Shown: piece by piece, positions 11,063 to 49,340 of the stretch
How positions within the stretch are numbered: the stretch's first letter is position 1
Layout: each line of letters opens with the position of its first letter
Virus record (IMG/VR): IMGVR_UViG_3300035670_000322
Span: 1-49,340 of that record
Strand: one strand, 5' to 3'
DNA from: a virus
DNA: 49,340 nucleotides
Notes under the pieces: model-generated
Seen by the model: the letters and a program-made list of their open reading frames with translations, nothing else
What the model was told of the DNA's origin: nothing
Database searches by the model: none
Program-made: the position numbers and the translations under genes

Positions 11063-12091
11063 TCAGTTCGCGGTCACTGCTTCCATCGCGCTGATGAGGT
11101 TGCGACCGTTGGTCACCAGATTGGTGAACCGTTCCCGATTGAACGTCACTTCCTTGTCCACATCGAAGATCTGGCCGAAGAAGTCCTGCTTGCGCTTGGC
11201 CGCTGCGCCAAAGTCGCTGGAGATGGTCTGCTTCATTCGGAAGCCCGGTTGATCTTGACCGCCGCTCGATTCGTGCGAATAGAAGTCAGTCACCGCGCTG
11301 AACGCATCGAGAAGAGTCTCTCCGCGATTTCCAGCACCCCGAGTGAACAACTCGGTCAAACGTCCGACAGTGTTGAACGAACGAGTGGAGAGACCGTTGG
11401 TCTCCTCCGCGATCCAGCCAGCGAAGAGAGGACGAGCCTGATCCAGCTTGACTGGAATCTCATTCGCGATCTTCAGCGCCTGCTGGAACTGGGCGGTGAC
11501 ACCGATGAACTGGTCGATGGCCTTCTCCATGTTCTCGATCTTAGGCACCAGATTCTTCGAGTGCCGCAGCTTGAAACGGAACTCGCCGGACCTGTCGCCC
11601 ATCGCCATCGCGAACGTGTTCGAGCAGACGACGCAGGTGCTGCTGTTCACGCCGTACAGATTCGTGCTCTGGTCGATACTGTCGAGCAGGGAGAACCGAT
11701 TCTTGAACACGCGATCTCCAACCTTGAACGTGTCGAGATCGGTTTGCAGTTTGACGGTGACAAACCGGCGGCAACGGTCGAAAACCGTTCCAGCGGACTC
11801 GATCACTGCACCAGTTCCGCCGACAGCGTTCTGCACGATCTCCCAGAAACGCTCATTCGTCACGGCGCTGTAAGTTTCAGGAACAGGCTTGCCGACAGGC
11901 TTGCCGTCGTCGGTGCAGCGGAAGTAGCTCCATCCCTGCAACTCTTCTTGGTTCTCGGTGAACAGAGGCTTACGCTCGATGTCGAACGGGAACGCATCCG
12001 CGAAGTTAATCACGGGAACGATCTTAGTCATCCCGTGCCAAGCCATCTCAAGTCCGGCCTGAATGTCTCGATTTTCAAGGTTTGCTGGCAT
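11063..12091 (-). CDS. DUF932 family phage/plasmid-like protein (342 aa)
   Basis: Length and pattern fit the DUF932 family (phage/plasmid-like TIGR03299 type): an N-terminal AWHGMTKIVPV segment, a central NSSTCVVCSNTFAMAMGD segment and a long helical C-terminal half. The family is common in plasmids and phages; its biochemical role is unknown. A ribosome site (AAAGGAAAA) precedes the ATG. The gene is much GC-richer than the phage core, with codons ending in G or C, so it was probably acquired. A terminator follows it. Confidence 0.8.
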   Translation of the reverse strand: MPANLENRDIQAGLEMAWHGMTKIVPVINFADAFPFDIERKPLFTENQEELQGWSYFRCTDDGKPVGKPVPETYSAVTNERFWEIVQNAVGGTGAVIESAGTVFDRCRRFVTVKLQTDLDTFKVGDRVFKNRFSLLDSIDQSTNLYGVNSSTCVVCSNTFAMAMGDRSGEFRFKLRHSKNLVPKIENMEKAIDQFIGVTAQFQQALKIANEIPVKLDQARPLFAGWIAEETNGLSTRSFNTVGRLTELFTRGAGNRGETLLDAFSAVTDFYSHESSGGQDQPGFRMKQTISSDFGAAAKRKQDFFGQIFDVDKEVTFNRERFTNLVTNGRNLISAMEAVTAN

Positions 12092-12315
12092 ACTGTGTTT
12101 TCCTTTTGGTTAGTTGTTGAATCGAACTGCGGAGACAGTGTGAGTGATTTCCTGTCCGGCTTCAACAATTTTTCTCAGATATTTTCGGTCCACCTGGCAA
12201 AATCCTGGTCAAGAAATCAATTTTCATGCCAACTATGATTTGGCATTCCTATTGCTGGGAGCAGAAACCGTGCCAACCACCTGGAGAATACCCAAAAAAA
12301 TCTCTTGATTTTTTT

Positions 12316-12372
12316 GGGGCCCCACCTTTTGTAAGTCCCTCAGTATCAAGGACTTACGCAAAGAGGGGCCCC
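12316..12372. repeat. 57-bp GGGGCCCC palindrome, copy 2
   Basis: Core variant CTCAGTATCAAGG. It sits in the 438-bp gene-free gap 12,092-12,529 between the DUF932 and SprT-like genes, and is preceded by a TTGGCA/TGCCAA inverted-repeat module and followed by an extra GTCGTTG/CAACGAC hairpin. Confidence 0.85.
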
Positions 12373-12529
12373 AACGCAAGTCGTTGAAAGACAACGACTT
12401 ACGTTGGTTTCTCTCTGAAGAAACTCCAGGTTGTCAACAACAAGTTTCGTGCCAAGTGGCTCAAAAAAAAGTTGTTCAGACGAGAAAAATCCCTTGTGCC
12501 TTGCAGTACAAGGTGATACTTTGATTGCA

Positions 12530-13030
12530 ATGAATGTGACTGAATTACAGAACGCTTGCATAGTTAAAATACAAAACGCATATTCAATTTGCGAATCTAT
12601 TTATTCAACTAAGTTTACATTTCCTACAGTAGAATTTAATTTGCGCGGTCGTCGAGCTGGTGTTGCATATTATCATTACAATCTAATTCGATTAAACAAT
12701 GTTCTTTTGATTGAAAACAAAGAAGCATTTATTAACGATACTCCGGGCCACGAAGCTGCCCATCTGATTGCGCGACAAGTTTATGGTATGTTCATTTCTT
12801 CACATGGTGCCGAATGGAAGAAAGTTATGCAAGTTATCGGCCAACCGGCAATTCGTTGTCACGATTTTGAAGTAAAAACAAATCATATTTATTCTTGCAA
12901 GTGCGATAAGAAGATTTATCTTTCTACCACCAAGCACAATGCAATTCAATCTGGCAGAAGAAATTACTTTTGCAAAATTTGTAAACAATATATTACTTGG
13001 GATAATTTAAACCAACCAGTTTTTGCCTGA
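12530..13030 (+). CDS. SprT-like zinc metalloprotease (166 aa)
   Basis: The HExxH motif is present as GHEAAHLIARQVYG (H74, E75, H78), and the third ligand region as SHGAEWKKVM (H92), both typical of SprT/Spartan domains. A C-terminal zinc ribbon follows (CKCDKK, then CKICKQY). Such proteins cleave DNA-bound proteins in eukaryotes; in phages the role is unknown. The start at 12530 is chosen because a GATACT -10-like box ends 9 nt before it, matching the leaderless spacing seen elsewhere. A longer TTG-initiated form would run back into repeat DNA. Confidence 0.78.
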   Translation: MNVTELQNACIVKIQNAYSICESIYSTKFTFPTVEFNLRGRRAGVAYYHYNLIRLNNVLLIENKEAFINDTPGHEAAHLIARQVYGMFISSHGAEWKKVMQVIGQPAIRCHDFEVKTNHIYSCKCDKKIYLSTTKHNAIQSGRRNYFCKICKQYITWDNLNQPVFA

Positions 13031-25063: not shown

Positions 25064-25384
25064 ATGAACTATATATTGATATATAAAGACGGTCGTGGTA
25101 CTAAAATGGCTGCAATACCCGACGAAGAAGGCGTTTATAAGACAAAAATCAACTTCTCAGATTTTAAAGAAGACATAACAAGCATCGAAGTTCTTGTTAT
25201 GGAGGTAGAAAATCCACATATTTTCTGCGATTGCGGTGAGGAAGATTATGAATATATAGAAGGTGAGATCGTGGGTAAAATGGTTGCATCGAAAAAAATA
25301 AGCGAATGTATAAAAAAACTTGGATTCGAGAAGTTTTTTACTACAATGATCAAACAATTTATTAAAAAAGAAGCTAATCTATAA
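25064..25384 (+). CDS. Hypothetical protein (106 aa)
   Basis: MNYILIYKDGRGTKMAAIPD, a strand-rich acidic protein with a short cysteine-containing turn (HIFCDCGEEDYEY) and a C-terminal helix. Its stop overlaps the first base of the glycosyltransferase start, so it is probably the first gene of the glycosylation operon. Not recognised. Confidence 0.5.
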   Translation: MNYILIYKDGRGTKMAAIPDEEGVYKTKINFSDFKEDITSIEVLVMEVENPHIFCDCGEEDYEYIEGEIVGKMVASKKISECIKKLGFEKFFTTMIKQFIKKEANL

Positions 25385-27312
25385 TGTCAAATCATCAATT
25401 CAAAGTATTATTTATTACTCCGCACTTGTCAACCGGTGGCGGTCCGCAATATTTACTCAAAAAAATACAAGAACTAAAAAATGATTGTGATATATATTGC
25501 ATTGAGTATTCAGATATAACAGGCGGCGTTCTCGTAGTACAACGAAATCAAATTAAAGAAATATTAGGTAATAAACTAATAACACTTGGTGAAAATAAAG
25601 CAGAATTGATGAATCATATTAATTCTATCAATCCTGACATTGTACATTTTGAAGAAATGCCAGAGTACTTTTGCAATCATGATATAGCAAAAAACATATA
25701 CAATAAGAACCGCCGATATAAGATTATTGAAACATCTCATGATAGTAGTTTTGAAATACAAAATAAATGTTTTTACCCTGATCGTTTTGTATTTGTAAGC
25801 GAATATCAAAAACAAATGTTTGCGCCATTAAATATACCATCAGATGTTGTTTTGTATCCTATAGAATATAAAATAAAAACAGACCGCACAGAAGCTTTAA
25901 AAAATTTAGGCTTAGATGTTAATAAAGTACATTTCTTAAACGTTGGTTTATTTACTTCACGTAAAAATCAAAAAGAAATCATTCAATACGCAAAAGAATT
26001 ATTGAACGAACCGGTGCAGTTTCATTTTGTCGGTAATCAAGCTGATAATTTTAGAGAATATTGGGAACCATTGATGAAAGATTTTCCATCAAACTGCAAA
26101 TGGTGGGGAGAAAGAAAAGATGTTGACACATTTTATAATGCTATGGATATATTTCTCTTCACATCAAAAGGCACAGCTCATGATAAAGAAACAAATCCTT
26201 TAGTATTAAGAGAAGCGATTGGTTGGAGAATGCCTATTTTGATGTATAATTTGCCGGTATATTGTGGAATGTATGATGAATATAAAAATATAACATATTT
26301 ATCTGATAATTTTGATCACAATTTATCAATGATAAAAGGTTTTTATACAAAAGAATTACCGATTGATATAGTTTTTACGGCTCCGAATAAATTTGAATTA
26401 ACAAATTATGGTCCTAAGACCAAATATTTAGTTTCTATTAAAGATTGTTTTACAAATATACCAATGTATCATTGTGAAGTAGATTTTACAGAAGCTAAAT
26501 CATGGTATATTGTGCCTAATGGTAATAAAGATTTTAGTTCTGAAACATTTTTTAGCACTTTTTTGATTGAATTTTATGATTTGAATAAAAATTTACTCGG
26601 TAAGAAGAAAATTAAAGTAAAAGATTTGAATTATATGCCGGTTGTTTTGAATGTTAATTTTAGTCCATTTGATTGTTTGTATATAAATTATAAGCAAATG
26701 TTTTATGAAAATATATATGGTCATTTACAAATAGACAATTTAAATACTGTTTTAGACATTGGTGCTAATGTTGGATTATTTAGCTTATACATGGCTAATC
26801 GAGGCAGTAAAAAAATCTACGCTTTTGAGCCAACTCGAAAAGCTTTCGATCAGTTATCTAAAGTTCTCGGTAATAATGATAAATTTACATTAATTAAAAA
26901 AGCTATATTTAATACAAATGGAAAATTAAAAATTAAGAGCGTTCAAGATAATTCTACGATTAGCGGCTTCATGAAAGAAGCTCATGAATATACTGGTAAT
27001 AATGTTACAGAAGAAGAAGTTGACGTAATCACATTAAATAGTTTTTATACTTCAGAAAATATAAAAAACATTGATTTAATTAAAATAGATATTGAAGGTG
27101 CAGAATATGAAGTAATAGCTGGTCTGCGTGATCAAGAAATTGTAAAATGTCCTAGATACATTATTGAATATCATTTAGGTAACAAAAAGAATGTATTTGA
27201 TATAGTCAACAGATTTACTAAATTAAATTATAAAATAATAAATATTGAAGATCCAAAATTTTTAAATGAAACAGGATTTTTTTACGCTCATTTAAATAAT
27301 GAAATTTCCTAA
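25384..27312 (+). CDS. Glycosyltransferase fused to FkbM-type methyltransferase (642 aa)
   Basis: Residues 1 to about 320 form a GT-B, GT4-type transferase: FITPHLSTGGGPQYLLKKIQ at the start, GLFTSRKNQKE before the donor domain, and DIFLFTSKGTAHDKETNPLV with the usual acidic donor-site stretch. A beta-rich linker follows (about 330-440). Residues about 450-642 are an FkbM methyltransferase with the SAM loop VLDIGANVGLFSLYM (D458) and the DLIKIDIEGAEYEV motif. It probably adds and O-methylates a sugar. It overlaps the next gene by 14 nt, so the two giant proteins are made together. Confidence 0.85.
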   Translation: MSNHQFKVLFITPHLSTGGGPQYLLKKIQELKNDCDIYCIEYSDITGGVLVVQRNQIKEILGNKLITLGENKAELMNHINSINPDIVHFEEMPEYFCNHDIAKNIYNKNRRYKIIETSHDSSFEIQNKCFYPDRFVFVSEYQKQMFAPLNIPSDVVLYPIEYKIKTDRTEALKNLGLDVNKVHFLNVGLFTSRKNQKEIIQYAKELLNEPVQFHFVGNQADNFREYWEPLMKDFPSNCKWWGERKDVDTFYNAMDIFLFTSKGTAHDKETNPLVLREAIGWRMPILMYNLPVYCGMYDEYKNITYLSDNFDHNLSMIKGFYTKELPIDIVFTAPNKFELTNYGPKTKYLVSIKDCFTNIPMYHCEVDFTEAKSWYIVPNGNKDFSSETFFSTFLIEFYDLNKNLLGKKKIKVKDLNYMPVVLNVNFSPFDCLYINYKQMFYENIYGHLQIDNLNTVLDIGANVGLFSLYMANRGSKKIYAFEPTRKAFDQLSKVLGNNDKFTLIKKAIFNTNGKLKIKSVQDNSTISGFMKEAHEYTGNNVTEEEVDVITLNSFYTSENIKNIDLIKIDIEGAEYEVIAGLRDQEIVKCPRYIIEYHLGNKKNVFDIVNRFTKLNYKIINIEDPKFLNETGFFYAHLNNEIS

Positions 27313-30300
27313 ACGCGCTTATATAACTTTCGCCAATGAAATATATGCTGACTTGGCTATTAAACTTGCTGAAACATTGTCATTATTTTCTAATAATAAA
27401 ATAATAATATATACTTATAATTTTGATCTAAAAACTGATTTGAAAAACATTATTGCAAAGAGAGTTAATTATAAATTAGAAAATCCACATTTTGTTAAAA
27501 ACGCAAAAGATTTAAACAATATTGGTATTGTTAATAGAGAAGATGTCAATACTTATCACGCATTAGTAAAAAAATTTGATATTGTTTTAAATGCTTTATC
27601 AAATGGTTTAGAAGAAGGATTTTTTATTGATTGTGATTCAATTGTAAGAAAAAATGTTGATGAAGTTTTTTCTTATTTGAGTGAAATAGAAAATTACCCT
27701 TTAGCAACTAAAGGGGTTTTTGAATATATGATGTGGAATGGAAAAGGAGATCCATTTACCGCTGATGTTTTAGAGAGAGAATCAATGGATATGTTGAATA
27801 TAAAAAATAGATCCATGCATTATGTACAAAGTGGTTATTTTTTATTTAATACATCTTGTAAAGATTTTTTTATGGATTGCCAAAAATTGGCTGCTGATAA
27901 AAGAATAATTGAAAATCATGTTTTATATGCTCCATATCATGATGAAACAATATTAAATTTAAAATTATGGCAGATTAACGCTAAAAAACAATTGCCTCTA
28001 AGTTATTATAATGTTGGATCGATTACTGATATAGATGATTTTTATAAGGCTGAAAATAAATCTCATTTTGTAAAAAATTGCCCGTGGCATGTTATTCCAA
28101 GCGATAAAAATGATATTAAATTTTTTCACGGTTGTAAATCTGTTAGCGAGATAGAGAAATGCATTATTTATTTAAAAAATAAAGAAATGAATATGCCTAG
28201 AATTTTTAATATTCATACAGGGCTTTTACCTATACCTCCAAATGGTTGGGGCGCTACAGAGAAAATAATTTGGGAGTATCATCAATCATTATTAAAGTTA
28301 GGTTTTGATTCGCAAATCGTTTATTTAGATGATTTAGTTTATAAAGAAGGTGATATTATACATATTCACATGGCTAATTTAGCATTGCTTGCTAAAAGCA
28401 GAAATATACCATATTATTTTACTTGTCATGATCATCATGCATATTTATATGGAAAAGATTCTTTTTGTTTCAAAGAAAACTATGAAGCAATAAAGTATTC
28501 AGTTAAATCATTTGTTCCGGCTAAATATTTAGTTGAATATTTTGATTTACCAAATTTAAATTATTTAAGTCATGGTGTAAACACTGAGGTTTTTAAAAAT
28601 GTAGATAATAAATTCAAGGATCATAAATTATTATGTGTCGCAAATAATGGATTTATTCATGACGCATCTGAAGATAGAAAAGGTTTTAGTTTTGCTATTG
28701 AAGCAGCACAAAAATTAAATTTGCCAATTACAGTTGCTGGTCCGTCGAATAACAAAAAATTCTTTGAACGCTATAATTGTAACTATGATAAATTAAATAT
28801 AATTTATGATTTGAATGAAAATGATTTAATTGAATTATATCAATCTCATACAATATTTTTAAGTCCATCTATTTTAGAAGCCGGTCACCCTAATTTAACA
28901 TTGTTAGAAGCATTATCTTGTGGACTACCTGTTCTATCAACTTTTGAAAAAAATAACGAATTAATAGGTTTAACAAGAATTGAAAGAAATGTTGATCATA
29001 TTGTTTCAGCAATTTGTGATGTTATAACTAATTATGATTTTTATTGTGAAAAAATAAAAGAAAATATTCATAAAAAATCATGGACTAACATAATTTTACA
29101 ATTATTATCTCATTATAATAAAGAATATAAAATGAAAGATCAACTGATTGACATTTATAAAAACACTGATGTTAAACATATAGACTATAAAATTCATAGC
29201 AATATATTTAAGCTTGATTATAATAACGGTTGCAAATTAGAAATATCAGGAAACGATAATACAAATTATACTGTTCAATTTTTCAATAAGACTGATGGTA
29301 AATTAATTTATGAATCTAACATCACAAACAATATGTGGACAATGCCAAATATTAAATATTTTATTGATTGGCGTGTTAAGGTTAGTAGCGATTCAAAACT
29401 AGTTTACGAAAATAGTATAAATCTAAAATATAAAAGAGTTTGTATAATTAATGAGTCGCCATCTTTGGGTGATTTGATTGCTTGGATGCCTTATGTTGAA
29501 GAGTTCAGAAAAAAGCATGATTGTTTACTTGATTTTTATACCCCTAATAAAGATTTATTTGCAAATGAATATCCTTTAATTAATTTCAAAAATTATGGTG
29601 TTATAAATACATCTTATTATGCTACTTACAAATTGGGTTATTTTGATTCAAATGATTTTAGTTCTACTCCAAAAGATAATAGAACGCAAAATCTACAACA
29701 AGTAGCAGCGGAAATATTAGGTTTAGAATATAAAGAAATAAAACCTAAAATTGATACATCTAAAGCCACTAGAAAAATTGATGGTAAATATGTTTGTATT
29801 ACTACAGCTTCAACTGCTGCTCTTAAACATTGGCAAAATTCTGATGGTTGGCAGCAAACTGTAGATTATTTGAATCAAAAAGGATATCAAGTTGTTGTAA
29901 TTCAAAAAGAACCGTTGAATTATATGGATTTGAAAGGGTTAAATAACGTTATACATCCAAAAACAAATACATTAAATGATTGTTTAGATTATTTAAATTA
30001 TTGTGATTTTTATATTGGTCTAGGTTCTGGTATTAGTTGGTTAGCTTGGGCTTTGGGCAAAAAAGTAATTATGATTAATGGTTTCAGTAAAGCTTTTACT
30101 GAATTTAATACTCCATATAGAGTTACTAATTTAAATGTATGTAATGGTTGCTGGAATGATACTAATTACCAGTTCAACAAAGGAGATTGGAATTGGTGTC
30201 CGAGACATCAAAATACAGATCGTCAATTTGAGTGTTCAAAAAATATATATTTTGCTGACGTTAAAAAACAAATTGATAATATAATTTATGATGGTGCTGA

Positions 30301-30940
30301 TGTAGCAAATTATAAAAATCTTGATTCTTTTGTATTCAATGAAATATTTTTGCATAACCAATATGAACTGTATCAAAAAATTGAAGAAAATGATTTTGTA
30401 GTTGATCTAGGATGTTCTAAAGGTTATTTATATCTTAAAAATAAAAATAAGAATATAACTTATCTAGGTATTGATGCGAGTGTTGATTGTATTAATGATT
30501 TTGTTTCTAATTTATCAAATAACGACAAGCCTATTATAATGAATGCTTTCTTATCTGATAAGTTAGATGTGCAAAATTTTAAATCTATTTTTCATGAAAA
30601 TGCTATTCAAAAAGTTTCATCTATAACATTTGAAAATCTAATTTCTCTTATAAATAAAAAAATTGATTTTCTAAAATTTGATATTGAAGCTTATGAAAGA
30701 CTGATTTTAAATAATAATTATAATTTATTTAAGAAATCAGTTAGAAAATTTTCAGGAGAAATTCATTTCCTTGGCGATTACTTTCCAAGACATGAAGTTT
30801 ATAAAACTTTAGAAAGAATGAAAAATGATAAAGATATCACTTTTAAACTTTTTTCACTAGATGGAGTAGATATTACTGAAAACTTTTGGAATATAAAAGA
30901 TTATTATAACGAGATAATAATAAATGGTTTAGTGAATTAA
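27299..30940 (+). CDS. Four-domain glycosylation protein: GT-A, GT4, autotransporter-heptosyltransferase-like, FkbM (1213 aa)
   Basis: Residues 1 to about 290 are a GT-A transferase with a metal-binding DCD (D111-D113 in FFIDCDSIVRKN). Residues 299 to about 620 are a GT4 domain (HTGLLPIPPNGWGATEKI; ILEAGHPNLTLLEALSCGLP). Residues about 711-1010 are a GT9 domain (NESPSLGDLIAWMPY; FYIGLGSGISWLAWALGKKV) with a four-cysteine finger, C948, C951, C967 and C979, around GDWNWCPRH. That finger marks the TibC/AAH autotransporter heptosyltransferases, which O-glycosylate serines. Residues about 1030-1213 are an FkbM methyltransferase (VVDLGCSKGYLYL; FLKFDIEAYERL). It probably builds and attaches a methylated glycan. 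Confidence 0.82.
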   Translation: MKFPKRAYITFANEIYADLAIKLAETLSLFSNNKIIIYTYNFDLKTDLKNIIAKRVNYKLENPHFVKNAKDLNNIGIVNREDVNTYHALVKKFDIVLNALSNGLEEGFFIDCDSIVRKNVDEVFSYLSEIENYPLATKGVFEYMMWNGKGDPFTADVLERESMDMLNIKNRSMHYVQSGYFLFNTSCKDFFMDCQKLAADKRIIENHVLYAPYHDETILNLKLWQINAKKQLPLSYYNVGSITDIDDFYKAENKSHFVKNCPWHVIPSDKNDIKFFHGCKSVSEIEKCIIYLKNKEMNMPRIFNIHTGLLPIPPNGWGATEKIIWEYHQSLLKLGFDSQIVYLDDLVYKEGDIIHIHMANLALLAKSRNIPYYFTCHDHHAYLYGKDSFCFKENYEAIKYSVKSFVPAKYLVEYFDLPNLNYLSHGVNTEVFKNVDNKFKDHKLLCVANNGFIHDASEDRKGFSFAIEAAQKLNLPITVAGPSNNKKFFERYNCNYDKLNIIYDLNENDLIELYQSHTIFLSPSILEAGHPNLTLLEALSCGLPVLSTFEKNNELIGLTRIERNVDHIVSAICDVITNYDFYCEKIKENIHKKSWTNIILQLLSHYNKEYKMKDQLIDIYKNTDVKHIDYKIHSNIFKLDYNNGCKLEISGNDNTNYTVQFFNKTDGKLIYESNITNNMWTMPNIKYFIDWRVKVSSDSKLVYENSINLKYKRVCIINESPSLGDLIAWMPYVEEFRKKHDCLLDFYTPNKDLFANEYPLINFKNYGVINTSYYATYKLGYFDSNDFSSTPKDNRTQNLQQVAAEILGLEYKEIKPKIDTSKATRKIDGKYVCITTASTAALKHWQNSDGWQQTVDYLNQKGYQVVVIQKEPLNYMDLKGLNNVIHPKTNTLNDCLDYLNYCDFYIGLGSGISWLAWALGKKVIMINGFSKAFTEFNTPYRVTNLNVCNGCWNDTNYQFNKGDWNWCPRHQNTDRQFECSKNIYFADVKKQIDNIIYDGADVANYKNLDSFVFNEIFLHNQYELYQKIEENDFVVDLGCSKGYLYLKNKNKNITYLGIDASVDCINDFVSNLSNNDKPIIMNAFLSDKLDVQNFKSIFHENAIQKVSSITFENLISLINKKIDFLKFDIEAYERLILNNNYNLFKKSVRKFSGEIHFLGDYFPRHEVYKTLERMKNDKDITFKLFSLDGVDITENFWNIKDYYNEIIINGLVN

Positions 30941-31972
30941 ATTTTTAAAAACTATCTCGTAGTCATCGCATTGTTTTTCAATTGTGTATTTATTTATTGC
31001 ATTAAGATAGCAATCATTTGGAGAAATATTTTGTATATTTAAAATTGCATCGATTAAGTTTTTAGGACTAAAACATCTATAGCCTGTTTTATTTTGTACA
31101 ACTGTTTCTGTAAAACCGCCAAAGTCCGTTGTTACTGTAGGTGTTCCAGAAAACTGCGCTTCGATTACAGTCCAGTTACACGGTTCTATAAATAAACTAG
31201 GAGCTACTAAGCATTTAGCATCGCTTAATAGTTTTTTTCTTTGTTCTGGTTCAACAAAACCAATAAATTTACAATATTTTGTATCTTTTAAATTTAATAT
31301 ATTCGGGCCTGCAAAAATAATATCTTGCTTAATATGATTATAAATATCATAAACTAAACGTGCACCCTTTTCTTTTATTATTCTTCCAAGAAATAGCGCG
31401 GTATTAGATTTTTGCGCTTTGTATTCAAAATCATTTTTATTAAAACCAGGATAAATAACAAATTCTTTTCCGAAATTCACTAATGTGTTTTGATTTCCGT
31501 GGAGTTTATGTAATTGGCTTTTTGTTTCAAAAATTTTAACCGGTGCAAACATGCTATCATAACCAATACTTGGTTCAACTACTATAGCTTTATCATAAAA
31601 ATTTTTAACACATTTTTCATGACCGAAACCAAACCATGCTAAAATAAATTCATTCTTAGATTTTAATCTTTTATTTATTTCTTGTACGCAATTATCATTA
31701 AAAATATCAAAAGCTTTATTATTGACATGTTGATCATAACCTTTTGTTTTCCAAGCGTTAAGATCGCCATATGTATCTTTTAAAATTTCATTATCTGTAA
31801 CAGTTATATGTTCAGTGCAATTAACTTTAGAATCTTTATGACCATAATGATATACAGTATGACCACGCTTTGTCATTTCATCGCAAAATTTATAAACTTT
31901 TTGAACAAATGCGCATAACGAATATTCTTTACAAGTTGGTGAATAAGGTATACTTAAGCAGTGAAATATCAC
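30929..31972 (-). CDS. Glycosyltransferase family 4 (347 aa)
   Basis: The N-terminal acceptor half includes SLCAFVQKVYKFCDEMTKRG and HTVYHYGHKD. The donor half has the GT4 landmarks ALFLGRIIKEKGARLVYDIY, KFIGFVEPEQRKKLLSDAKC and APSLFIEPCNWTVIEAQFSG. It is convergent with the 1213-aa gene (12-nt overlap of the 3' ends) and diverges from the PhoH-like gene with only 26 bp between the starts. It probably acts in the same glycan pathway. Confidence 0.85.
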   Translation of the reverse strand: MIFHCLSIPYSPTCKEYSLCAFVQKVYKFCDEMTKRGHTVYHYGHKDSKVNCTEHITVTDNEILKDTYGDLNAWKTKGYDQHVNNKAFDIFNDNCVQEINKRLKSKNEFILAWFGFGHEKCVKNFYDKAIVVEPSIGYDSMFAPVKIFETKSQLHKLHGNQNTLVNFGKEFVIYPGFNKNDFEYKAQKSNTALFLGRIIKEKGARLVYDIYNHIKQDIIFAGPNILNLKDTKYCKFIGFVEPEQRKKLLSDAKCLVAPSLFIEPCNWTVIEAQFSGTPTVTTDFGGFTETVVQNKTGYRCFSPKNLIDAILNIQNISPNDCYLNAINKYTIEKQCDDYEIVFKNLIH

Positions 31973-34916: not shown

Positions 34917-35845
34917 CAGAATGTAAAATATGTAATGAAAAGTTTGATAATGATAAATCATTTCACGCGCATTTAAAAAAACACAATATATATCAAGCAG
35001 AATATTATTGTACTCATTATCCGAGGTATTCTCTGTTTTATAAAAGACAAATACCTTATTTAAATAAAAAAGATTATTTCAAGACAGAATTCATTGATTT
35101 AAATGAATTTTTGCAATGGGAGAGATCTCAGCCTCAAGAAATTGTTAAATCTAAATGTTTAGAAATAATTTCTGAACGTATTAAAGAAAAGAATTACTCT
35201 TATGCGCCATTTCATAACGAAATTAAAACATTAGCATTGCCACCAATTAATATAATAAAAAAACATTTCGGTTCATATAATACATTTTGCAAAGAATTGA
35301 ATAAAGAACCAGTATTTAATAAAAATATAATATCAGATTTTAATAATGTTGATTTGCAGAATGCGACTATTTTAATTGATACTAGAGAACAAATGCCATT
35401 AGAATTTGCTAATTCGCGTATTGAAAAATTATATGTTGGCGATTATTTATTAGAAAATAATACATATAGTTATACTTTTGTTGATAGAAAAAGTGAATCT
35501 GATTTTCTAGGAACAATGGCTTCTGGATTAAGTAGATTTGAAAGAGAGATAGAAAAAGCAGTAGGATTAAATAGTTATTTATTTGTAGTTATCGAATCTA
35601 CTATAAATGATATTAAATACAATCATAAAAAATATAATCGCAGAACTAGTTTAGAATATGTTTTTCACAATATGCGTTATTTAACTCATAAATATGCTAG
35701 ACATATTCAATTCATATTTACAGGTAATCGCGAAAAATCTTTAGATATTATACCGAAACTTTTATATCATGGTAATAAGTTATGGCAAGTAGACATACAA
35801 TATTTTTTAGACTATGAGCTGGGAATGTGGGAGCCAAAAAAATAA
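34913..35845 (+). CDS. ERCC4-type nuclease with N-terminal C2H2 finger (310 aa)
   Basis: The first 25 residues are a C2H2 zinc finger (CKICNEKFDNDKSFHAHLKKH). Residues about 150-300 carry the ERCC4/XPF nuclease core: ILIDTREQMPLEF, then VGDYLL, then FVDRKSESDFLGTM, with the catalytic D...ERK-like acidic-basic set, and LFVVIES. Such nucleases cut branched or structured DNA. Set between the candidate small terminase and TerL, it overlaps both, so it may process concatemers for packaging. Confidence 0.75.
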   Translation: MTECKICNEKFDNDKSFHAHLKKHNIYQAEYYCTHYPRYSLFYKRQIPYLNKKDYFKTEFIDLNEFLQWERSQPQEIVKSKCLEIISERIKEKNYSYAPFHNEIKTLALPPINIIKKHFGSYNTFCKELNKEPVFNKNIISDFNNVDLQNATILIDTREQMPLEFANSRIEKLYVGDYLLENNTYSYTFVDRKSESDFLGTMASGLSRFEREIEKAVGLNSYLFVVIESTINDIKYNHKKYNRRTSLEYVFHNMRYLTHKYARHIQFIFTGNREKSLDIIPKLLYHGNKLWQVDIQYFLDYELGMWEPKK

Positions 35846-38800
35846 AAAAAATTATTTAATTTCGAATGAAGAACTTCTTCAAAAAGAAGGATTCATGGAA
35901 GAAAAAGAAGCTAAGTTGTTATTTTATCAGTTTTTAAGAAACAATATTACATTCTCAACTGATTTGATTACTGGAGTTAAATTATTTCCTTTTCAACATA
36001 TGGCTATTAAAGGCATGTTGGAAAGCGATTATTTTTTGGCGGTATGGAGTCGTGGTTTAAGTAAATGTACTAATAAAAATTCTTTAATTTTTACAAATAA
36101 CGGAATTAAAAAAGCAATAGATGTTCAAATTGGAGATTATGTTCTTGCTAAAAATTCTATGCAATTAGTGGAAGGTAAAACTGTTAATAAAAAGCAAAAG
36201 ACATATAAGATAACAACAGATAAAGGTTATGAATCTGAGGGTCTAGATTATCACAGAATTTTGATATTGAATAAAAATCTAGAACAAGAATGGAAGTTTG
36301 CTAAAGATCTTTCAATTGGAGATTGTATTATAATGCGTAAGAATGGTTTTTTCAGTAATCAAATCAATATATTCGCAGGATTTTCTATTGAAAAAGAAAG
36401 ATTTGATCAAGTTGTAATTGATCCACTAAAAATATCGTTAAAAGATTGGTATTACTTTTTTGGAATTTTTATTGGTGATGGCTGTTTTACAAATAAAATA
36501 ATTCAAATCACAAGCGAAGATATAGAAATAAAAAATTTCTTAATGTACTTTTGTGATAAATTAAATCTTAATTTAAAAATTTATCAAAAAAAGAACAATA
36601 AAGCCCAAAGCTTTACTATTTCTAATAAGTCTTTGCAAAAATTTCTTGAATTTTGTGGTTTTGAAGTAGGAAAAAAAGCAGTTAATAAAATAATTCCTTA
36701 TAAACTTTTAAACTGTTCGAAAGATAGCGCATCAAATCTATTAAAAGGTTTATTTGATACAGATGGTTACGCTTCAATATCAGCTAAACGTAGAAATTCT
36801 AATGGCGCAAAGATTGGTTTTACGAGTACGTCTTATGAATTAATTAAACAAGTCAGAACTTTGCTTTTAATATTTGGAATAGATTCAACTACAAAAATTT
36901 CTTTTAAAGGTGGTGAGTCTAATTTTTCAGGAAAAAAATATATTTGCAATAAAGCTTGGACAATCTTATTAAGCACTTATGAAAATATAAAAATATTTAA
37001 GGATTCTATTGGTTTTTTAATAAATAGAAAACAAGAAAAATTAAATATAATTAATGCCGCAAAATATATTGATGGGCAATTTTCTAATACGATTCCTTTT
37101 ATTGGAGAATATTTAATTTCAAAATATAATAAAAAATCAATTTGCAAAAAAAATAAAAATCAGCAGATCAAATTGCCATTTAGAAAAAAAACAAATCGGA
37201 CTCTTGCTAAAAATCTAGCAAACTTTGTTGATTTAGAAACTTCAAACAAAATAAATAATTTATTAGATGAAAATCTATTTTTTGATTTTGTAAAAATAAA
37301 AGAAGAATCTCTTAATGAGACCGTAGATTTGCAAGTAGCAAATGAACATTGCTATATGTCAGATGGATTTATAAATCATAATTCATATACGTGTGGCATA
37401 TTTGCAGCATTAGATGCGATATTTAATCAAGGTGTTGAGATAGGAATTTTGAGCCGCAGTTTTCGTCAGTCTAAAATGATATTTAAAAAGATTGAAGATA
37501 TTGCTGCAAAACCAGAAGCTTATTTATTAAAACAATGTATTACTCATGTATCTAAAAGTAATGATGAATGGGTAATGGAAATCGGTAAAAGCAGAATACG
37601 AGCATTACCTTTAGGCGATGGTGAAAAGCTTCGCGGTTTTCGCTTTCATCGTATTATCATTGACGAGTTTTTATTGATGCCAGAACGTATTTATAATGAA
37701 GTTATTGTTCCGTTCTTGTCCGTTGTGCAAAATCCAACACAAAGAGAAGAGCTTTATAATCTCGAAACACAATTGATTGAAAAAGACGAGATGAAAGAAG
37801 AAGATCGATATCAGTGGCCTAATAATAAATTAATTGCATTATCTTCTGCATCTTTTAAATTTGAATATTTATATAAGTTGTATGAGCAGTATGAAAATTT
37901 AATTTTTAATCCAAAAACAAAAGATACTACTAGACGTTGTGTTATGCAGTTTTCTTATGATTGTGCGCCGACACAATTATATGATCAAAATTTGATCAAT
38001 CAAGCGAAAGCAACGATGAGTGAATCTCAGTTTTTAAGAGAATTCGGAGCACAATTTACAGATGATAGTTCTGGTTATTTTAAAATTTCTAAAATGGCTC
38101 TTTGTACTATACCTGATGGTGAATTGCCGTCAATTGAAGTAGCGGGTCATGCAGAAGATGAATATATAGTTTCTGTTGACCCTTCTTGGTCAGAAACCGA
38201 ATCTTCTGACGATTTCGCGATTCAAGTATTAAAGATAAATAGAGAAAAACAAATATCAACTCTTGTCCATTCTTATGCTTTATCTGGTTCATCATTAAAA
38301 GACCATATTAAATACTTTTTATATATACTTCAAAACTTCAATGTTGTTGCAATATGTATGGATTATAACGGTGGCGTTCAGTTTATGAATTCTTGCAATG
38401 AAAGTGAACTTTTCAAAGACGCTAAAATTAATCTAAAATCAATTACAACAGAATTTGAGCGGCCTGAAGAATATGCCCAAAACTTGTTTTCTGCTAAAAT
38501 GGAATATAACAAATCAGAATATAAGTATGTATTTTTAAGAAAGCCAACTTCTTCTTGGATACGTTTAGCGAATGAAATGTTACAAGCTAATTTTGATCAT
38601 CGTCGTATTTTCTTTGGCAGCAGAGCAATTGATGACAATTTCAGAGCGCAAACTAAAAGAAGAATTGGCATTACTAATTTAAAATTTTCTAATTCATTAG
38701 ATTCAGAAAAAGAAAACGAAGAAGCTAAAATGATTGATTTTGTTGAGCATTTAACTGATATGATTTTGTTAACTAAAACAGAATGCGCACTAATACAAAT

Positions 38801-38996
38801 TACTACTTCTGCTCAAGGTTTACAGAATTTTGATTTACCAGCTAATTTAAAACGTAAAACAGGTCCAGATAAACCTAGAAAAGATAGTTATTCAGCTTTA
38901 GTATTAGGTAATTGGTTAGCAAAAATTTATTTTGATATGGAAAATACTCAAGTCGATAATGTTATGGAAACTTTTGAGCCGTTATTTATTGCATAA
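35814..38996 (+). CDS. Terminase large subunit interrupted by an intein (1060 aa precursor)
   Basis: The mature protein (about 621 aa after splicing) is the packaging ATPase/nuclease. Its P-loop is split: WSRGLSK lies before the insert and SYTCGIFAALDAIF after it. The Walker B is FHRIIIDEFLLMPER. The RNase H-like nuclease begins with EYIVSVDPSW and continues with CMDYNGG. The start at 35814 overlaps the nuclease gene by 32 nt; ATG 35895 is an alternative. TerL cuts concatemers and drives DNA into proheads. Confidence 0.88.
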   Translation: MSWECGSQKNKKNYLISNEELLQKEGFMEEKEAKLLFYQFLRNNITFSTDLITGVKLFPFQHMAIKGMLESDYFLAVWSRGLSKCTNKNSLIFTNNGIKKAIDVQIGDYVLAKNSMQLVEGKTVNKKQKTYKITTDKGYESEGLDYHRILILNKNLEQEWKFAKDLSIGDCIIMRKNGFFSNQINIFAGFSIEKERFDQVVIDPLKISLKDWYYFFGIFIGDGCFTNKIIQITSEDIEIKNFLMYFCDKLNLNLKIYQKKNNKAQSFTISNKSLQKFLEFCGFEVGKKAVNKIIPYKLLNCSKDSASNLLKGLFDTDGYASISAKRRNSNGAKIGFTSTSYELIKQVRTLLLIFGIDSTTKISFKGGESNFSGKKYICNKAWTILLSTYENIKIFKDSIGFLINRKQEKLNIINAAKYIDGQFSNTIPFIGEYLISKYNKKSICKKNKNQQIKLPFRKKTNRTLAKNLANFVDLETSNKINNLLDENLFFDFVKIKEESLNETVDLQVANEHCYMSDGFINHNSYTCGIFAALDAIFNQGVEIGILSRSFRQSKMIFKKIEDIAAKPEAYLLKQCITHVSKSNDEWVMEIGKSRIRALPLGDGEKLRGFRFHRIIIDEFLLMPERIYNEVIVPFLSVVQNPTQREELYNLETQLIEKDEMKEEDRYQWPNNKLIALSSASFKFEYLYKLYEQYENLIFNPKTKDTTRRCVMQFSYDCAPTQLYDQNLINQAKATMSESQFLREFGAQFTDDSSGYFKISKMALCTIPDGELPSIEVAGHAEDEYIVSVDPSWSETESSDDFAIQVLKINREKQISTLVHSYALSGSSLKDHIKYFLYILQNFNVVAICMDYNGGVQFMNSCNESELFKDAKINLKSITTEFERPEEYAQNLFSAKMEYNKSEYKYVFLRKPTSSWIRLANEMLQANFDHRRIFFGSRAIDDNFRAQTKRRIGITNLKFSNSLDSEKENEEAKMIDFVEHLTDMILLTKTECALIQITTSAQGLQNFDLPANLKRKTGPDKPRKDSYSALVLGNWLAKIYFDMENTQVDNVMETFEPLFIA
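36066..37382 (+). mobile_element. Intein with LAGLIDADG endonuclease inside TerL (439 aa)
   Basis: It starts at Cys (codon 36066, after SRGLSK) and ends HN followed by Ser, the standard splice residues. The N-terminal splicing block reads CTNKNSLIFTNNGIKKAIDV and the C-terminal block HCYMSDGFINHN. Two LAGLIDADG helices are present (FFGIFIGDGCF and LLKGLFDTDGYAS), so the homing endonuclease looks intact. Insertion between the Lys and Ser of the P-loop is a classic intein choice: the most conserved codons of the host gene. Confidence 0.88.
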
Positions 38997-43385: not shown

Positions 43386-44576
43386 ATGAAAATCGTTTTA
43401 AAGAGAACAGACGAACAAGTCGAACTAATCAAAGCATTAGCTTCCAAGAATCGTGAAGTAGCCTATGAAGCTCAAGTAGCTTTGGCTGAATTCATTGGTC
43501 CTGTTTTGGCTGAAGTTATCAATAATGCTCCTACTGTTTCTAACTTGTTTACAAGTCTTCAATTCAACGCTGAAGATAATCCTTCCATTCCTTTGGATTT
43601 ATATTATGATATCTTCGATGAAGATTACATCAAAGTTTACAGCCAATCTGTAGCTGGTGGTCTTCCTCAAAATATCGTTCAACCTTTGGCTTCTGAACTC
43701 AAGATCGCTACTTATCGCTTGGACAGCGCTGTCGCATTCGATAAGAAGTATGCTGCTAAGAGCCGTTTAGATGTTGTCAGCAAGTCTTTCACTCGCGTAG
43801 CTCAAGAAGTTATGCTCAAGCAAGAAAGAACTTCTGCTAATCTTCTAATGACTGCTCTCGCTAATGCTTCCACTGGTAATTCTGCTACAGCTGCTGATAA
43901 CTATCACGTTTTCCGCGCTGCCGCTCCCGGTAGATTTGTTTTGAATGACTTGAACAAGTTATTTACCAAGATCAAGAGAATCAACGCTTCATTCGTTGGT
44001 GGTACTCCTTCAGGTGCTCGTCGTGGTCTAACTGATCTCATCGTTTCACCTGAAATCATCGAAGAAATTCGTGGTATGGCTTATAACCCAATTAACACTA
44101 AGGGTTCATTAGCTAAGGGTGGTACAGCTGCTGGTTATCAAGCTGATCAAACCGGTGGTAACAACGGTATCGTAGCTACTGATGCTATTCGTGATCAAAT
44201 CTTCAGCCAAGCTGGTATTCCTGAATTCTTCGGTGTTTCCATCATGGAAATTCTCGAATTCGGCGTTGGTAAGAAGTTCAACACAATCTTCAGCACAGTT
44301 TCTTCTGGCGTAAGTTATGCTGACAACTACGCTTTACCTGCTAATAGCGGTACTGCTAGAGCTATTCAAACAACCGAACAAGTTATCGTTGGTCTCGATA
44401 GATCACGCGATTCTCTCGTTCGTGCTGTCGCTGTTGATTCTGACACTGGTTCTGAATTCAATCTTGTCGCTGATGATCAATATACATTGCGTCAAGGCAA
44501 GATTGGTTACTATGGTGCATTAGAAGAGGGCCGTATGGTTCTTGACAATAGGGCACTTGTGGGTCTTCTAGTGTAA
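43386..44576 (+). CDS. Major capsid protein (396 aa)
   Basis: Strong codon bias (GCT, GGT, AAG, CTC), position after protease/scaffold, and size all fit an HK97-fold capsid protein. The N-terminal helix-rich part (AEFIGPVLAEVINNAPTVSN) precedes the E-loop-like region and a conserved C-terminal segment with FGVSIMEILEFGVGKKF. A strong terminator follows, as for many capsid genes. Cleavage by the upstream protease is likely but not visible. Confidence 0.83.
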   Translation: MKIVLKRTDEQVELIKALASKNREVAYEAQVALAEFIGPVLAEVINNAPTVSNLFTSLQFNAEDNPSIPLDLYYDIFDEDYIKVYSQSVAGGLPQNIVQPLASELKIATYRLDSAVAFDKKYAAKSRLDVVSKSFTRVAQEVMLKQERTSANLLMTALANASTGNSATAADNYHVFRAAAPGRFVLNDLNKLFTKIKRINASFVGGTPSGARRGLTDLIVSPEIIEEIRGMAYNPINTKGSLAKGGTAAGYQADQTGGNNGIVATDAIRDQIFSQAGIPEFFGVSIMEILEFGVGKKFNTIFSTVSSGVSYADNYALPANSGTARAIQTTEQVIVGLDRSRDSLVRAVAVDSDTGSEFNLVADDQYTLRQGKIGYYGALEEGRMVLDNRALVGLLV

Positions 44577-44652: not shown

Positions 44653-45507
44653 ATGAACTATCAATTATGGACTGATTCAGAAATCAATATTCTAAAAGAA
44701 AAATGTTCTACTGGAGTTTATTCTTATAAAGATATTGGAAAATTTTTAAACCGTAGTTCGCATTCTTGTCAAAATAAAGCGAAACAATTAAAAATAAAAA
44801 ACCCATTTAAATCTGCTAAAAAATATAATGTAAATATAGATTTTTGGATTCCCAATGCCATTTCTTGTTATTGGGCTGGATTTAGTGCGGCTGATGCATC
44901 AATTAATAAACATAGTTTGAATTGTTATAATTACAGATTAGAAATATCAAATTCTGATATTGAACATTTGGAGCAATTTAAAAAAGATGCAGGATTTGAT
45001 GGACCGATAAAAACATCGCTAAGAGATGGTACTTTTTTGCATTCGCGAGTGGTTATATCTGAACCTAAATGGATTGCTGATTTGCAAAAATATTATAATA
45101 TAATTCCAAATAAAACATCAAGACTAGCGCCGCCAAATTTAAACGATGAATATTTAAAATTTTGTTATTTGATAGGATATATTGATGGTGATGGATGTAT
45201 TTTTTTTGATAAAAAAAGAAATATTTTAGCATTTAGAGTAATTAGTAGTTCAATTTTTATTATTGAATGGCTTCATAAAATAATTTTTGATAAATTTTCA
45301 AATTGTTATTTTAGAAATAAAAAAAATTCAATTTCTTACAGTTTAAATAAATATCCGGTGTTTTCAATTAACGGTATTCGTGCGGCTGTTGTTTTTGATT
45401 TTTTATATAAATTTAATTTACCAAAATTAAGTCGTAAATGGAACCGACCGGAAATACATGAATATGTGAATAAAATGAAAGCTTTATATCCGCAAGTTTT
45501 TATTTAA
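44653..45507 (+). CDS. Free-standing LAGLIDADG homing endonuclease (284 aa)
   Basis: Residues 1-45 form a Myb/HTH-like DNA-binding part (WTDSEINILKEKC, SYKDIGKFLNRSSHSCQNKA). Two LAGLIDADG motifs follow: CYWAGFSAADASIN, in which the usual first-motif acidic residue remains, and LIGYIDGDGCIFF. The protein should cut a site in related phages lacking the gene and spread by repair. It lies between the capsid gene and the SAP-domain gene, after a terminator. Confidence 0.8.
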   Translation: MNYQLWTDSEINILKEKCSTGVYSYKDIGKFLNRSSHSCQNKAKQLKIKNPFKSAKKYNVNIDFWIPNAISCYWAGFSAADASINKHSLNCYNYRLEISNSDIEHLEQFKKDAGFDGPIKTSLRDGTFLHSRVVISEPKWIADLQKYYNIIPNKTSRLAPPNLNDEYLKFCYLIGYIDGDGCIFFDKKRNILAFRVISSSIFIIEWLHKIIFDKFSNCYFRNKKNSISYSLNKYPVFSINGIRAAVVFDFLYKFNLPKLSRKWNRPEIHEYVNKMKALYPQVFI

Positions 45508-46384: not shown

Positions 46385-48133
46385 ATGGCAAGTATTGATG
46401 TAAATGTTACAAACAGCAAAAATACAATTGATGTAAGCGTAGTTAATTCTTCATTACAAAGCAACGTTAATACTTGCGAAAATGAAATTGATATAAATTT
46501 AATTCCTAATGCGGCAATATCTGTTACAGGCAAAGAAATAGGACCAGCTGGATCTTCGGGTAGTAGCGGCACATCTGGATCAAGTGGTTCATCTGGAAGT
46601 TCTGGTTCTTCAGGTTCGTCTGGAAGTTCTGGATCTAGCGGTTCATCAGGTTCATCAGGATCATCTGGAAGTTCTGGTAGTACAGGATCTTCTGGTTCAA
46701 CTGGTAGTTCAGGTAGTTCAGGTAGCTCTGGTGCAAATGGTTCATCTGGATCGTCTGGAAGTTCTGGGTCTAGTGGTTCGTCTGGTTCATCTGGATCATC
46801 TGGTAGTGGTGGTAGTAGCGGATCCTCTGGAAGTTCAGGTTCATCTGGATCATCAGGAAGTTCAGGAGCAAACGGTTCATCTGGATCATCTGGTCAAAAC
46901 GGTTCTTCGGGCAGTTCAGGAATTAATGGATCATCAGGAAGCAGTGGATCTGCTGGTAGTTCTGGTAGCACAGGATCTTCTGGTTCAACTGGTAGTTCAG
47001 GAAGTTCAGGCAGTTCAGGTGTAAACGGTTCATCTGGATCATCTGGTCAAAACGGTTCTTCGGGCAGTTCAGGAATTAATGGATCTTCAGGAAGCAGTGG
47101 ATCTGCTGGTAGTTCTGGTAGCACAGGATCTTCTGGTTCAACTGGTAGTTCAGGAAGCTCAGGCAGTTCTGGTGTAAACGGTTCATCTGGATCATCGGGT
47201 CAAAATGGTTCTTCGGGCAGTTCAGGAATTAATGGATCATCAGGAAGCAGTGGATCTGCTGGTAGTTCTGGTAGCACAGGATCTTCTGGTTCAACTGGTA
47301 GTTCAGGAAGTTCAGGCAGTTCAGGTGTAAACGGTTCATCTGGATCATCTGGTCAAAACGGTTCTTCGGGCAGTTCAGGAATTAATGGATCATCAGGAAG
47401 CAGTGGATCTGCTGGTAGTTCTGGTAGCACAGGATCTTCTGGTTCAACTGGTAGTTCAGGAAGTTCAGGCAGTTCAGGTGTAAACGGTTCATCTGGAAGT
47501 TCTGGATCTAGTGGATCATCTGGCACATCAGGATCTAGTGGATTATCTGGTACATCAGGATCTTCAGGTTCATCTGGAAGTTCTGGAATATCAGGATCAA
47601 GTGGTTCAAGTGGAACTTCAGGATCTTCAGGTACAAGTGGAAATAGCGGATCATCTGGCAGTTCTGGAACAAGTGGAGTTGGAGTACCCGCTGGCGGAAC
47701 AACAAATCAAATATTAGCTAAGATTGATGGAACAGATTATAACACACAGTGGATCAATAATAATGCAACTTCAAATGGTCAATCGTTATATGATACTATA
47801 ACTTATACTGGTCATAATTTTATAGTTGGTGATGTTGTTAGATTTGATGGAACAGATTGGTATAAAGCTATAGCGAATAGTAAAGCAAACGCTGAAGTCG
47901 CGGGTTTTGTACAAGCTACTGCAACTAACACTTTTGATTTGTTATATTATGGAAAAATAACTGGTTTATCAGGATTAAATCCTGGCGGATTTTATTTTTT
48001 ATCTCCAAATATTTCTGGAACAATCACTGAAACTGAGCCAACTGGCAAATTTCAGATTTCTAAACCAGTTTTGTTATCTTTGTCATCGAATATTGGTTTA
48101 GTGTTATTGTATAGAGGATACGAAATAACTTAG
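46385..48133 (+). CDS. Gly-Ser-Ser triplet-repeat fibre protein (582 aa)
   Basis: A beta-strand N-terminal anchor (residues 1-50) is followed by about 370 residues of collagen-like triplets G-S-S, G-T-S, G-Q-N and G-I-N, then a folded C-terminal domain of about 150 residues (NQILAKIDGTDYNTQWI; GFYFLSPNISGT). Unlike collagen it has almost no proline. Four 153-bp near-identical DNA units make up its centre. It is probably a thin trimeric tail or capsid fibre. The density of serine and threonine makes it an obvious glycan acceptor. Confidence 0.75.
   Translation: MASIDVNVTNSKNTIDVSVVNSSLQSNVNTCENEIDINLIPNAAISVTGKEIGPAGSSGSSGTSGSSGSSGSSGSSGSSGSSGSSGSSGSSGSSGSSGSTGSSGSTGSSGSSGSSGANGSSGSSGSSGSSGSSGSSGSSGSGGSSGSSGSSGSSGSSGSSGANGSSGSSGQNGSSGSSGINGSSGSSGSAGSSGSTGSSGSTGSSGSSGSSGVNGSSGSSGQNGSSGSSGINGSSGSSGSAGSSGSTGSSGSTGSSGSSGSSGVNGSSGSSGQNGSSGSSGINGSSGSSGSAGSSGSTGSSGSTGSSGSSGSSGVNGSSGSSGQNGSSGSSGINGSSGSSGSAGSSGSTGSSGSTGSSGSSGSSGVNGSSGSSGSSGSSGTSGSSGLSGTSGSSGSSGSSGISGSSGSSGTSGSSGTSGNSGSSGSSGTSGVGVPAGGTTNQILAKIDGTDYNTQWINNNATSNGQSLYDTITYTGHNFIVGDVVRFDGTDWYKAIANSKANAEVAGFVQATATNTFDLLYYGKITGLSGLNPGGFYFLSPNISGTITETEPTGKFQISKPVLLSLSSNIGLVLLYRGYEIT
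46868..47479 (+). repeat. Four tandem 153-bp units within the GSS-repeat gene
   Basis: Units begin at 46868, 47021, 47174 and 47327 and encode 51-residue blocks of 17 triplets starting GxNGSSGSSGQNG. A fifth partial unit starts at 47480. Near-identity at the DNA level shows recent expansion by recombination or slippage. Confidence 0.88.
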
Positions 48134-48211: not shown

Positions 48212-49340
48212 ATGGGTTATTCTACTTTTTCAGTTAGTAACGGTTCAAGCGGAACGTCAGGTTCAAGTGGTCTTAATGGATCATCTGGCTCCAGCGGAAT
48301 CAGTGGTATTGATGGATCTCATGGTACATCAGGAAGTTCTGGATCAAGTGGATCAACAGGATCTTCAGGATCAAGCGGAATAAATGGCAGTTCTGGATCT
48401 AGTGGTATTAATGGATCTAGCGGAAGTTCAGGAATCAACGGAACTTCAGGATCAAGTGGAAGCAGTGGTTCAACAGGTACTTCAGGAACAAGTGGTACTT
48501 CTGGAACAAGCGGAACCAGTGGTTCATCGGGAACTTCAGGTATAGATGGTAGCAATGGTTCATCTGGATCATCTGGTACAAGCGGAAGCAGCGGTTCATC
48601 AGGAACTTCAGGTACAAGTGGTAGTTCTGGCACAAGTGGAAGCAGTGGTTCATCGGGAACTTCAGGTATAGATGGTAGCAATGGTTCATCTGGATCATCT
48701 GGTACAAGCGGAAGCAGCGGTTCATCAGGAACTTCAGGTACAAGTGGTAGTTCTGGCACAAGTGGTACTTCCGGTACAAGCGGTAGTTCTGGTACAAGCG
48801 GAAGCAGCGGTTCATCAGGAACTTCAGGAACAAGTGGTACTTCTGGTGCAAGTGGTGCTTCTGGCACAAGTGGAAGCAGCGGTTCATCGGGAACTTCAGG
48901 AACAAGTGGTACTTCTGGTACAAGTGGTACTTCCGGTACAAGCGGTAGTTCTGGTACAAGCGGAAGCAGCGGTTCATCAGGGACTTCAGGAACAAGCGGA
49001 AGCAGCGGTTCATCGGGAACTTCAGGAACAAGTGGTACTTCTGGTGCAAGTGGTGCTTCTGGCACAAGTGGAAGCAGCGGTTCATCAGGGACTTCAGGAA
49101 CAAGCGGAAGCAGCGGTTCATCGGGAACTTCAGGAACAAGTGGTACTTCTGGTACAAGTGGTACTTCCGGTACAAGCGGTAGTTCTGGTACAAGCGGAAG
49201 CAGCGGTTCATCGGGAACTTCAGGAACAAGTGGTACTTCTGGTGCAAGTGGTGCTTCTGGCACAAGTGGAAGCAGCGGTTCATCGGGAACTTCAGGAACA
49301 AGTGGTACTTCTGGTACAAGTGGTACTTCCGGTACAAGCG
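48212..49340 (+). CDS. Second GSS/GTS triplet-repeat fibre protein, 3' end outside window
   Basis: MGYSTFSVSNGSSGTSGSSG begins triplet repeats within 11 residues, so it has almost no N-terminal anchor domain. It is rich in G-T-S and G-A-S triplets. 376 codons are visible, all open, and the gene continues past the edge. Long DNA repeats (for example the GGAACTTCAGGAACAAGTGG block, many times) indicate rapid length change. Preceded by a 78-bp AT-rich gap. Probably a second fibre or a paralogue of the first. Confidence 0.72.
   Translation, partial: MGYSTFSVSNGSSGTSGSSGLNGSSGSSGISGIDGSHGTSGSSGSSGSTGSSGSSGINGSSGSSGINGSSGSSGINGTSGSSGSSGSTGTSGTSGTSGTSGTSGSSGTSGIDGSNGSSGSSGTSGSSGSSGTSGTSGSSGTSGSSGSSGTSGIDGSNGSSGSSGTSGSSGSSGTSGTSGSSGTSGTSGTSGSSGTSGSSGSSGTSGTSGTSGASGASGTSGSSGSSGTSGTSGTSGTSGTSGTSGSSGTSGSSGSSGTSGTSGSSGSSGTSGTSGTSGASGASGTSGSSGSSGTSGTSGSSGSSGTSGTSGTSGTSGTSGTSGSSGTSGSSGSSGTSGTSGTSGASGASGTSGSSGSSGTSGTSGTSGTSGTSGTS

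Follow-up and report, generated by a model that had tools for sequence, protein, structure and literature searches.

What would a phage do with a glycosyltransferase related to TibC and AAH, a family known from bacterial adhesins, when the same genome encodes proteins built of Gly-Ser/Thr-Ser/Thr triplets? The question arises from the window, i.e., the whole 49,340-base stretch of viral DNA analysed here (IMG/VR record IMGVR_UViG_3300035670_000322), in which a 1,213-aa protein with a TibC-like domain is found together with two such array proteins (Table 1). A preliminary description of this DNA had proposed that the phage coats its own fibres with methylated glycans by means of a heptosyltransferase-like enzyme.

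The Locus

The 1,213-aa gene has an uninterrupted frame, and its product runs, in order, through a GT-A domain, a GT4 domain, a complete TibC-like domain and an FkbM methyltransferase domain. The first of these has an invariant D111-x-D113 (DCD) in the alignment, and the top Foldseek matches of its model (pLDDT 86) are GT6/GT8-type galactosyl/GalNAc transferases (E ~1e-7, TM ~0.5). The start of the gene is overlapped by that of a 642-aa protein whose relatives accompany TibC-like genes in many loci.

Table 1. Features of the window discussed in the text.
Feature	Coordinates	Strand	Evidence
642-aa GT4 glycosyltransferase and FkbM methyltransferase	25384..27312	+	PF05050 E 1.3e-21; PF00534 E 6.4e-12; TIGR01444 116.5 bits (well over the cut-off of 37.7)
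1,213-aa four-domain glycosyltransferase/methyltransferase	27299..30940	+	ORF; Pfam and NCBIfam profiles
Domain 1, GT-A fold glycosyltransferase, residues 1-295	27299..28183	+	AlphaFold2 model; Foldseek; alignment
Domain 2, GT-B glycosyltransferase of GT4 type, residues 301-610	28199..29128	+	PF00534 E 1.2e-9; PF13692 E 6.4e-9 (Pfam)
Domain 3, TibC/AAH-like O-glycosyltransferase, residues 635-995	29201..30283	+	TIGR04414; PDB 4rap; model
Domain 4, FkbM-type methyltransferase, residues 1030-1213	30386..30940	+	PF05050 22.7 bits (Pfam; exactly the family cut-off); TIGR01444 17.9 bits (under the cut-off of 37.7) and phrog_8156, weak
347-aa GT4 glycosyltransferase, convergent with the 1,213-aa gene	30929..31972	-	phrog_3408 E 3e-63; PF00534 E 5e-17
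Putative major capsid protein	43386..44576	+	Solely its position and very high conservation; no match in databases
Array protein 1, 582 aa, C-terminus non-repeat	46385..48133	+	G-X-X array 46541-47683; PF01391 Collagen
Array protein 2, open at the window end	48212..49339	+	Triplets from 48242

Array protein 1 has 127 G-X-X triplets, including 87 GSS, 10 GST and 6 GTS, and array protein 2, within which the window ends, has at least 122, including 57 GTS and 46 GSS. The two arrays claimed beforehand do exist, but with about 125 triplets each and not hundreds. The PHROG tail-fibre matches of array protein 1 stem from the repeat, its N-terminus alone giving none and its C-terminus alone weak or unnamed ones, so the label "fibre" rests on context. 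Two minus-strand ORFs over the second array (48319-49263 and 48435-49337) look like shadows of the repeat and not genes. A Pfam scan of 17 window ORFs found no autotransporter partner with strand-loop-strand repeats; there are Ser/Thr triplet arrays instead. Elsewhere in the window, a terminase large-subunit-like ORF (35814-38996) is split by a LAGLIDADG intein, and the region right after the putative capsid gene (44653-45507), with weak LAGLIDADG and Myb-like matches, probably encodes a homing endonuclease.

The TibC-Like Domain

By sequence, the 1,213-aa ORF is a member of the NCBIfam family TIGR04414 (hepto_Aah_TibC, "autotransporter strand-loop-strand O-heptosyltransferase"), with 332.6 bits (E 2.8e-99) over residues 638-995 against a curated equivalog cut-off of 200 bits, a placement that concerns the sequence family and not the functional class of autotransporter heptosyltransferases. 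TibC itself (PDB 4rap) aligns by phmmer to residues 635-993, N-terminal domain included, at E 1.5e-63, and with these two E-values the likeness to TibC/AAH is not a matter of chance. The homology that had been placed at residues 711-1010 is therefore real, but the domain begins at about residue 635. The start of the PDB alignment and the fold of the model both indicate that the N-terminal beta-barrel domain is present; Pfam TibC_1st gives the protein 20.3 bits, below its own cut-off of 27.

Structure prediction against TibC had been suggested at the outset, and it bore out the assignment: the top Foldseek matches of the AlphaFold2 model of this domain (pLDDT 84) are all TibC, with a TM of 0.85 to 4rap, while the runner-up family, GT9 and LPS heptosyltransferases, reaches at most 0.58. 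A plain LPS heptosyltransferase is ruled out by profile scores and fold. The GDWNWCPRH motif (residues 962-970) and the four-cysteine iron finger, both noticed earlier, are present, with C948, C951, C967 and C979 aligned to TibC Cys339, Cys342, Cys358 and Cys370.

The roles of TibC residues, i.e., the catalytic residues, donor contacts and iron-finger cysteines of the TibC structure paper (PMC4358343), were mapped onto 79 viral and 36 bacterial clusters at 85% identity. The catalytic base Asp110 corresponds to D725 in the window, and the donor contacts Thr226, Lys230 and Trp305 to T839, K843 and W914. Across the viral clusters Asp110, Trp305 and the four cysteines never vary (79/79), and the Lys230 position is Lys in 78 of 79. 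The tip of the thumb that forms the TibC dodecamer, Phe265-Val266, is Y875-M876 in the window, lies near model residues of low confidence (237-242), and is gapped in about one third of the viral clusters; because it is not conserved among them, the phage form may differ from the TibC ring in its assembly.

In a quick tree with several open forks, the 80 viral rows (the window included) and 7 rows from bacterial contigs fall on one side and 30 bacterial rows, TibC among them, on the other, although bacterial rows were reached only via motifs chosen from the viral ones and bacterial sampling is accordingly limited. The enzyme looks like an old resident of phages, not a recent capture. Five bacterial contigs (L524, L525, L526, L527 and L531, from Methylobacter, Polaromonas and other Proteobacteria) have TibC-like genes beside small GTS/GTA-array proteins, which could be prophage loci or a cellular version.

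The Sugar Donor

TibC Arg286, which contacts the adenine of ADP-heptose, is Cys895 in the window. The position is Arg in 30 of 36 bacterial clusters versus 20 of 79 viral ones, 19 of those 20 being a single clade, and the residue is thus lost in 59 of 79. Since the catalytic residues are kept and Arg286 is mostly lost, the domain is likely a working glycosyltransferase, and ADP-heptose is not supported as its donor. "Heptose" is doubtful on these residues, and the phage enzyme may well use another donor; a supply of ADP-heptose by the host is possible. A search for two families of the ADP-heptose pathway in 17 large phage records gave no TIGR02199 over its cut-off and gmhA once. The latter, a sedoheptulose-7-phosphate isomerase gene over its curated cut-off, is in the 636-kb phage LR756504.1 (L713 6084-6653, ~430.1-430.7 kb), ~27 kb from the TibC-like gene.

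Co-Occurrence and Adjacency of Enzyme and Arrays

An alignment search of IMG/VR found at least 598 confirmed stretches encoding a TibC-like domain. Whether enzyme and arrays co-occur across phages had been set beforehand as a check, and they do. A sample of viral records with runs of eight Ser/Thr triplets contains 44 that are 30 kb or longer; TIGR04414 is over its cut-off in 20 of these, as opposed to none of 50 random records, of which 32 reach 30 kb (Fisher 1e-8; 2e-6 against those 32). Records with Pro/Gln/Lys collagen-type arrays have it in 2 of 38 cases, and without one of the two, L209, which also holds a Ser/Thr array, in 1 of 37 (Fisher p 6e-6 versus the Ser/Thr-array records); all of these samples are unmatched for habitat or host and may differ in lineage, and related records within them are not independent. 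Chance co-occurrence is rejected by the random records, and association with any collagen-like repeat by the Pro/Gln control. The enzyme is associated with Ser/Thr arrays specifically and not with collagen-like repeats in general. The assembled part of 24 of the 44 records does not contain the enzyme; such absences, of enzyme or array, are soft because assemblies tend to break in arrays. Every array-bearing record of the T4-like capsid family carried the enzyme, an association that is one evolutionary event and has little weight.

The genes are also close together. The strict array pattern occurs somewhere in 32 of 50 enzyme-bearing records, and in 27 of these 32 an array lies within the fetched flank (at most 10 kb from the enzyme), where a single random position would give 8.2, an expectation that is somewhat low because arrays are long and three of the 32 records look near-identical. 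An array ORF is present in 62 of 115 viral enzyme loci, 3 of 120 random loci and 8 of 80 T4-like capsid loci, the locus lengths differing between sets. Counted by cluster, the fetched locus contains an array ORF for 48 of the 80 viral TibC clusters; the distance is at most 5 kb for 44 clusters and at most 1 kb for 11. In five loci (L130, L128, L202, L145 and L184) the array gene starts 13-98 bp past the matched TibC-like domain. The claim that the enzyme stands beside the array genes thus needs amending for the window, where they lie 15.4 kb downstream of it, but holds for many relatives, in which they directly adjoin. Gene orders and orientations vary among the loci, and near TibC genes the Ser/Thr saturation of the triplets averages 0.76 over the X and Y positions.

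The one cultured phage found to carry the enzyme is the Microcystis phage Mel-JY01, whose 190-kb genome has the enzyme gene at 4750-8430; its strict array matches are confined to 0.1-2.1 kb and 9.4-9.7 kb, on the two sides of that gene. For the phage family of the window, retrieved with the putative capsid gene as bait, the enzyme is present in all 29 contigs with 13 kb or more of sequence upstream of that gene; the 15 contigs without it all end short of 12.2 kb upstream. In most contigs of the family an array directly follows the capsid region. LR756504.1 has the enzyme and no array. The same is true after the capsid gene of a close relative of the window, L072, in which a non-repeat gene (11759-12663) instead follows a 109-aa gene.

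The records of L049, L060, L072, L076 and L079 contain tandem TibC-like copies side by side, some with in-frame stops. In L003 (PP395634.1), the CDS WWT39287.1 (739-2298, minus strand) is antisense to a Ser/Thr-array ORF (frame 2-3049, plus strand) and is probably an annotation error.

What the Enzyme Might Modify

The explanation that we favour, and consider quite probable, is that these phages O-glycosylate their own Gly-Ser/Thr-Ser/Thr repeat fibres and that the fused domains extend the glycan and cap it with methyl groups. In this scheme the TibC-like domain would attach the initial sugar to the Ser/Thr hydroxyls, which the arrays offer with a period of three residues. The glycan would then be lengthened by the GT4 and GT-A domains of the same chain and by GT4 enzymes encoded nearby, and O-methylated by the FkbM domains. 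What the analysis shows is the family of the enzyme, its retained catalytic residues, its domain fusion and its particular link to Ser/Thr arrays; from there we infer that the arrays are acceptors and virion fibres, and also the order of the sugars and the methyl cap. The array hydroxyls are the simplest acceptor because the link is specific to Ser/Thr and not Pro/Gln triplets; extension is suggested by the fusion of GT4 and GT-A domains, and capping by the presence of FkbM domains. Of the self-coating originally proposed, then, the co-occurrence, the proximity and the methyltransferase domains speak in its favour, whereas its heptose is weakened by Cys895 and by the single gmhA in the search for two ADP-heptose pathway families. 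Counting against the favoured explanation are the loss of Arg286 and the thumb tip, the carriers LR756504.1 and L072, the array records in which the enzyme is missing, the 15 kb between enzyme and arrays in the window and, finally, the known acceptors of TibC/AAH, which are loops of beta-helical autotransporters and not triplets of collagen type.

That last point bears on a different substrate. Beta-solenoid loops, on which TibC enzymes normally act in folded form, are often found in phage fibre tips, and the glycosylated protein might be some other part of the virion (capsid, tail tube or non-repeat fibre parts), with the arrays as passive spacers. We regard this as rather unlikely, since it leaves both the Ser/Thr saturation of the triplets and the Pro/Gln contrast unexplained, although there is a precedent in mycobacteriophages, which are described in papers citing the original work as glycosylating capsid and tail tube (PMC12363180, PMC12619734).

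A role in altering the LPS or capsule glycan of the host surface during infection, the arrays being merely common fibre parts of the same phages, is unlikely. LPS is the substrate of WaaC/WaaF-type GT9 enzymes, serotype-converting phage glycosyltransferases remodel the host surface, and PHROGs lists phage glycosyltransferases under morons/host takeover. In sequence and fold, however, the domain is TibC-like and not WaaC-like, LPS heptosyltransferase models score far under their cut-offs, and such remodelling predicts neither the preference for Ser/Thr over Pro/Gln nor adjoining array genes.

Could enzyme and arrays travel together without a functional link, both being traits of one habitat or phage lineage? 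The unmatched controls, the single origin of both traits in the T4-like set and the one phage with the enzyme only (LR756504.1) are compatible with this, but it is very unlikely given 80 enzyme clusters spread over a deep tree, adjacency far above random placement, and differing gene orders and orientations. Some phage glycosyltransferases are known to glycosylate modified bases in DNA (PMC12619734); here this has a very low probability, the enzyme being closely homologous to a protein O-glycosyltransferase and linked to array genes.

A broader form of the favoured explanation is offered tentatively, as plausible more than probable: a widespread phage system in which a TibC-related enzyme, having lost its adenine contact and using another donor, hyperglycosylates Ser/Thr-saturated collagen-like fibre arrays, which would explain the long GSS/GTS runs in many phages.

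Relation to Known Systems

TibC has the shape of a ring and hyperglycosylates its substrate (PMC4358343). The phage enzyme shares with the TibC/AAH enzymes (the BAHT family; TIGR04414; PDB 4rap, 4rb4) full-length homology, the N-terminal barrel, the catalytic Asp, the phosphate-contacting Thr and Lys, Trp305 and the four-Cys iron finger. It differs from them in its separate branch of the tree and its fusion to GT-A, GT4 and methyltransferase domains and, in the window, in the Cys at Arg286, Y875-M876 at the thumb tip, and the company of Ser/Thr triplet arrays where no autotransporter partner was found.

Glycosylation of collagen-like proteins is familiar from BclA of the Bacillus exosporium and from mimivirus collagens. 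There, sugars are known on Gly-X-Y repeat proteins of a particle surface, as is proposed here, with other enzymes and other hosts; the likeness is one of description only. Glycosylation of their own virions by phages is known too, the mycobacteriophages Che8, Corndog and Myrna being the examples (Freeman et al. 2023, as cited in PMC12363180 and PMC12619734). By the citing papers' description only, phage-encoded glycosyltransferases are common to both cases, the modification of virion proteins being known for theirs and predicted here from genetic association, and their acceptors are instead capsid and tail-tube subunits. A literature search, with most subscription papers and all preprints outside its scope, found no report of a phage TibC-type enzyme or of glycosylated phage GSS/GTS arrays, in agreement with the early impression that such a system had not been described; while phage virion glycosylation is already known, the pairing of a TibC-type enzyme with Ser/Thr arrays appears to be undescribed.

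Many phage contigs from the environment contain Ser/Thr triplet arrays, to which we found no role assigned. If they are carriers of glycans, the phage fibre would be a bottlebrush of sugars, which would matter for its stability, for its adhesion to particles or mucus, for shielding and for recognition of the host. The BAHT family would then reach beyond bacterial adhesins, into viruses and to an acceptor of a new type, and enzyme and substrate would form a compact pair.
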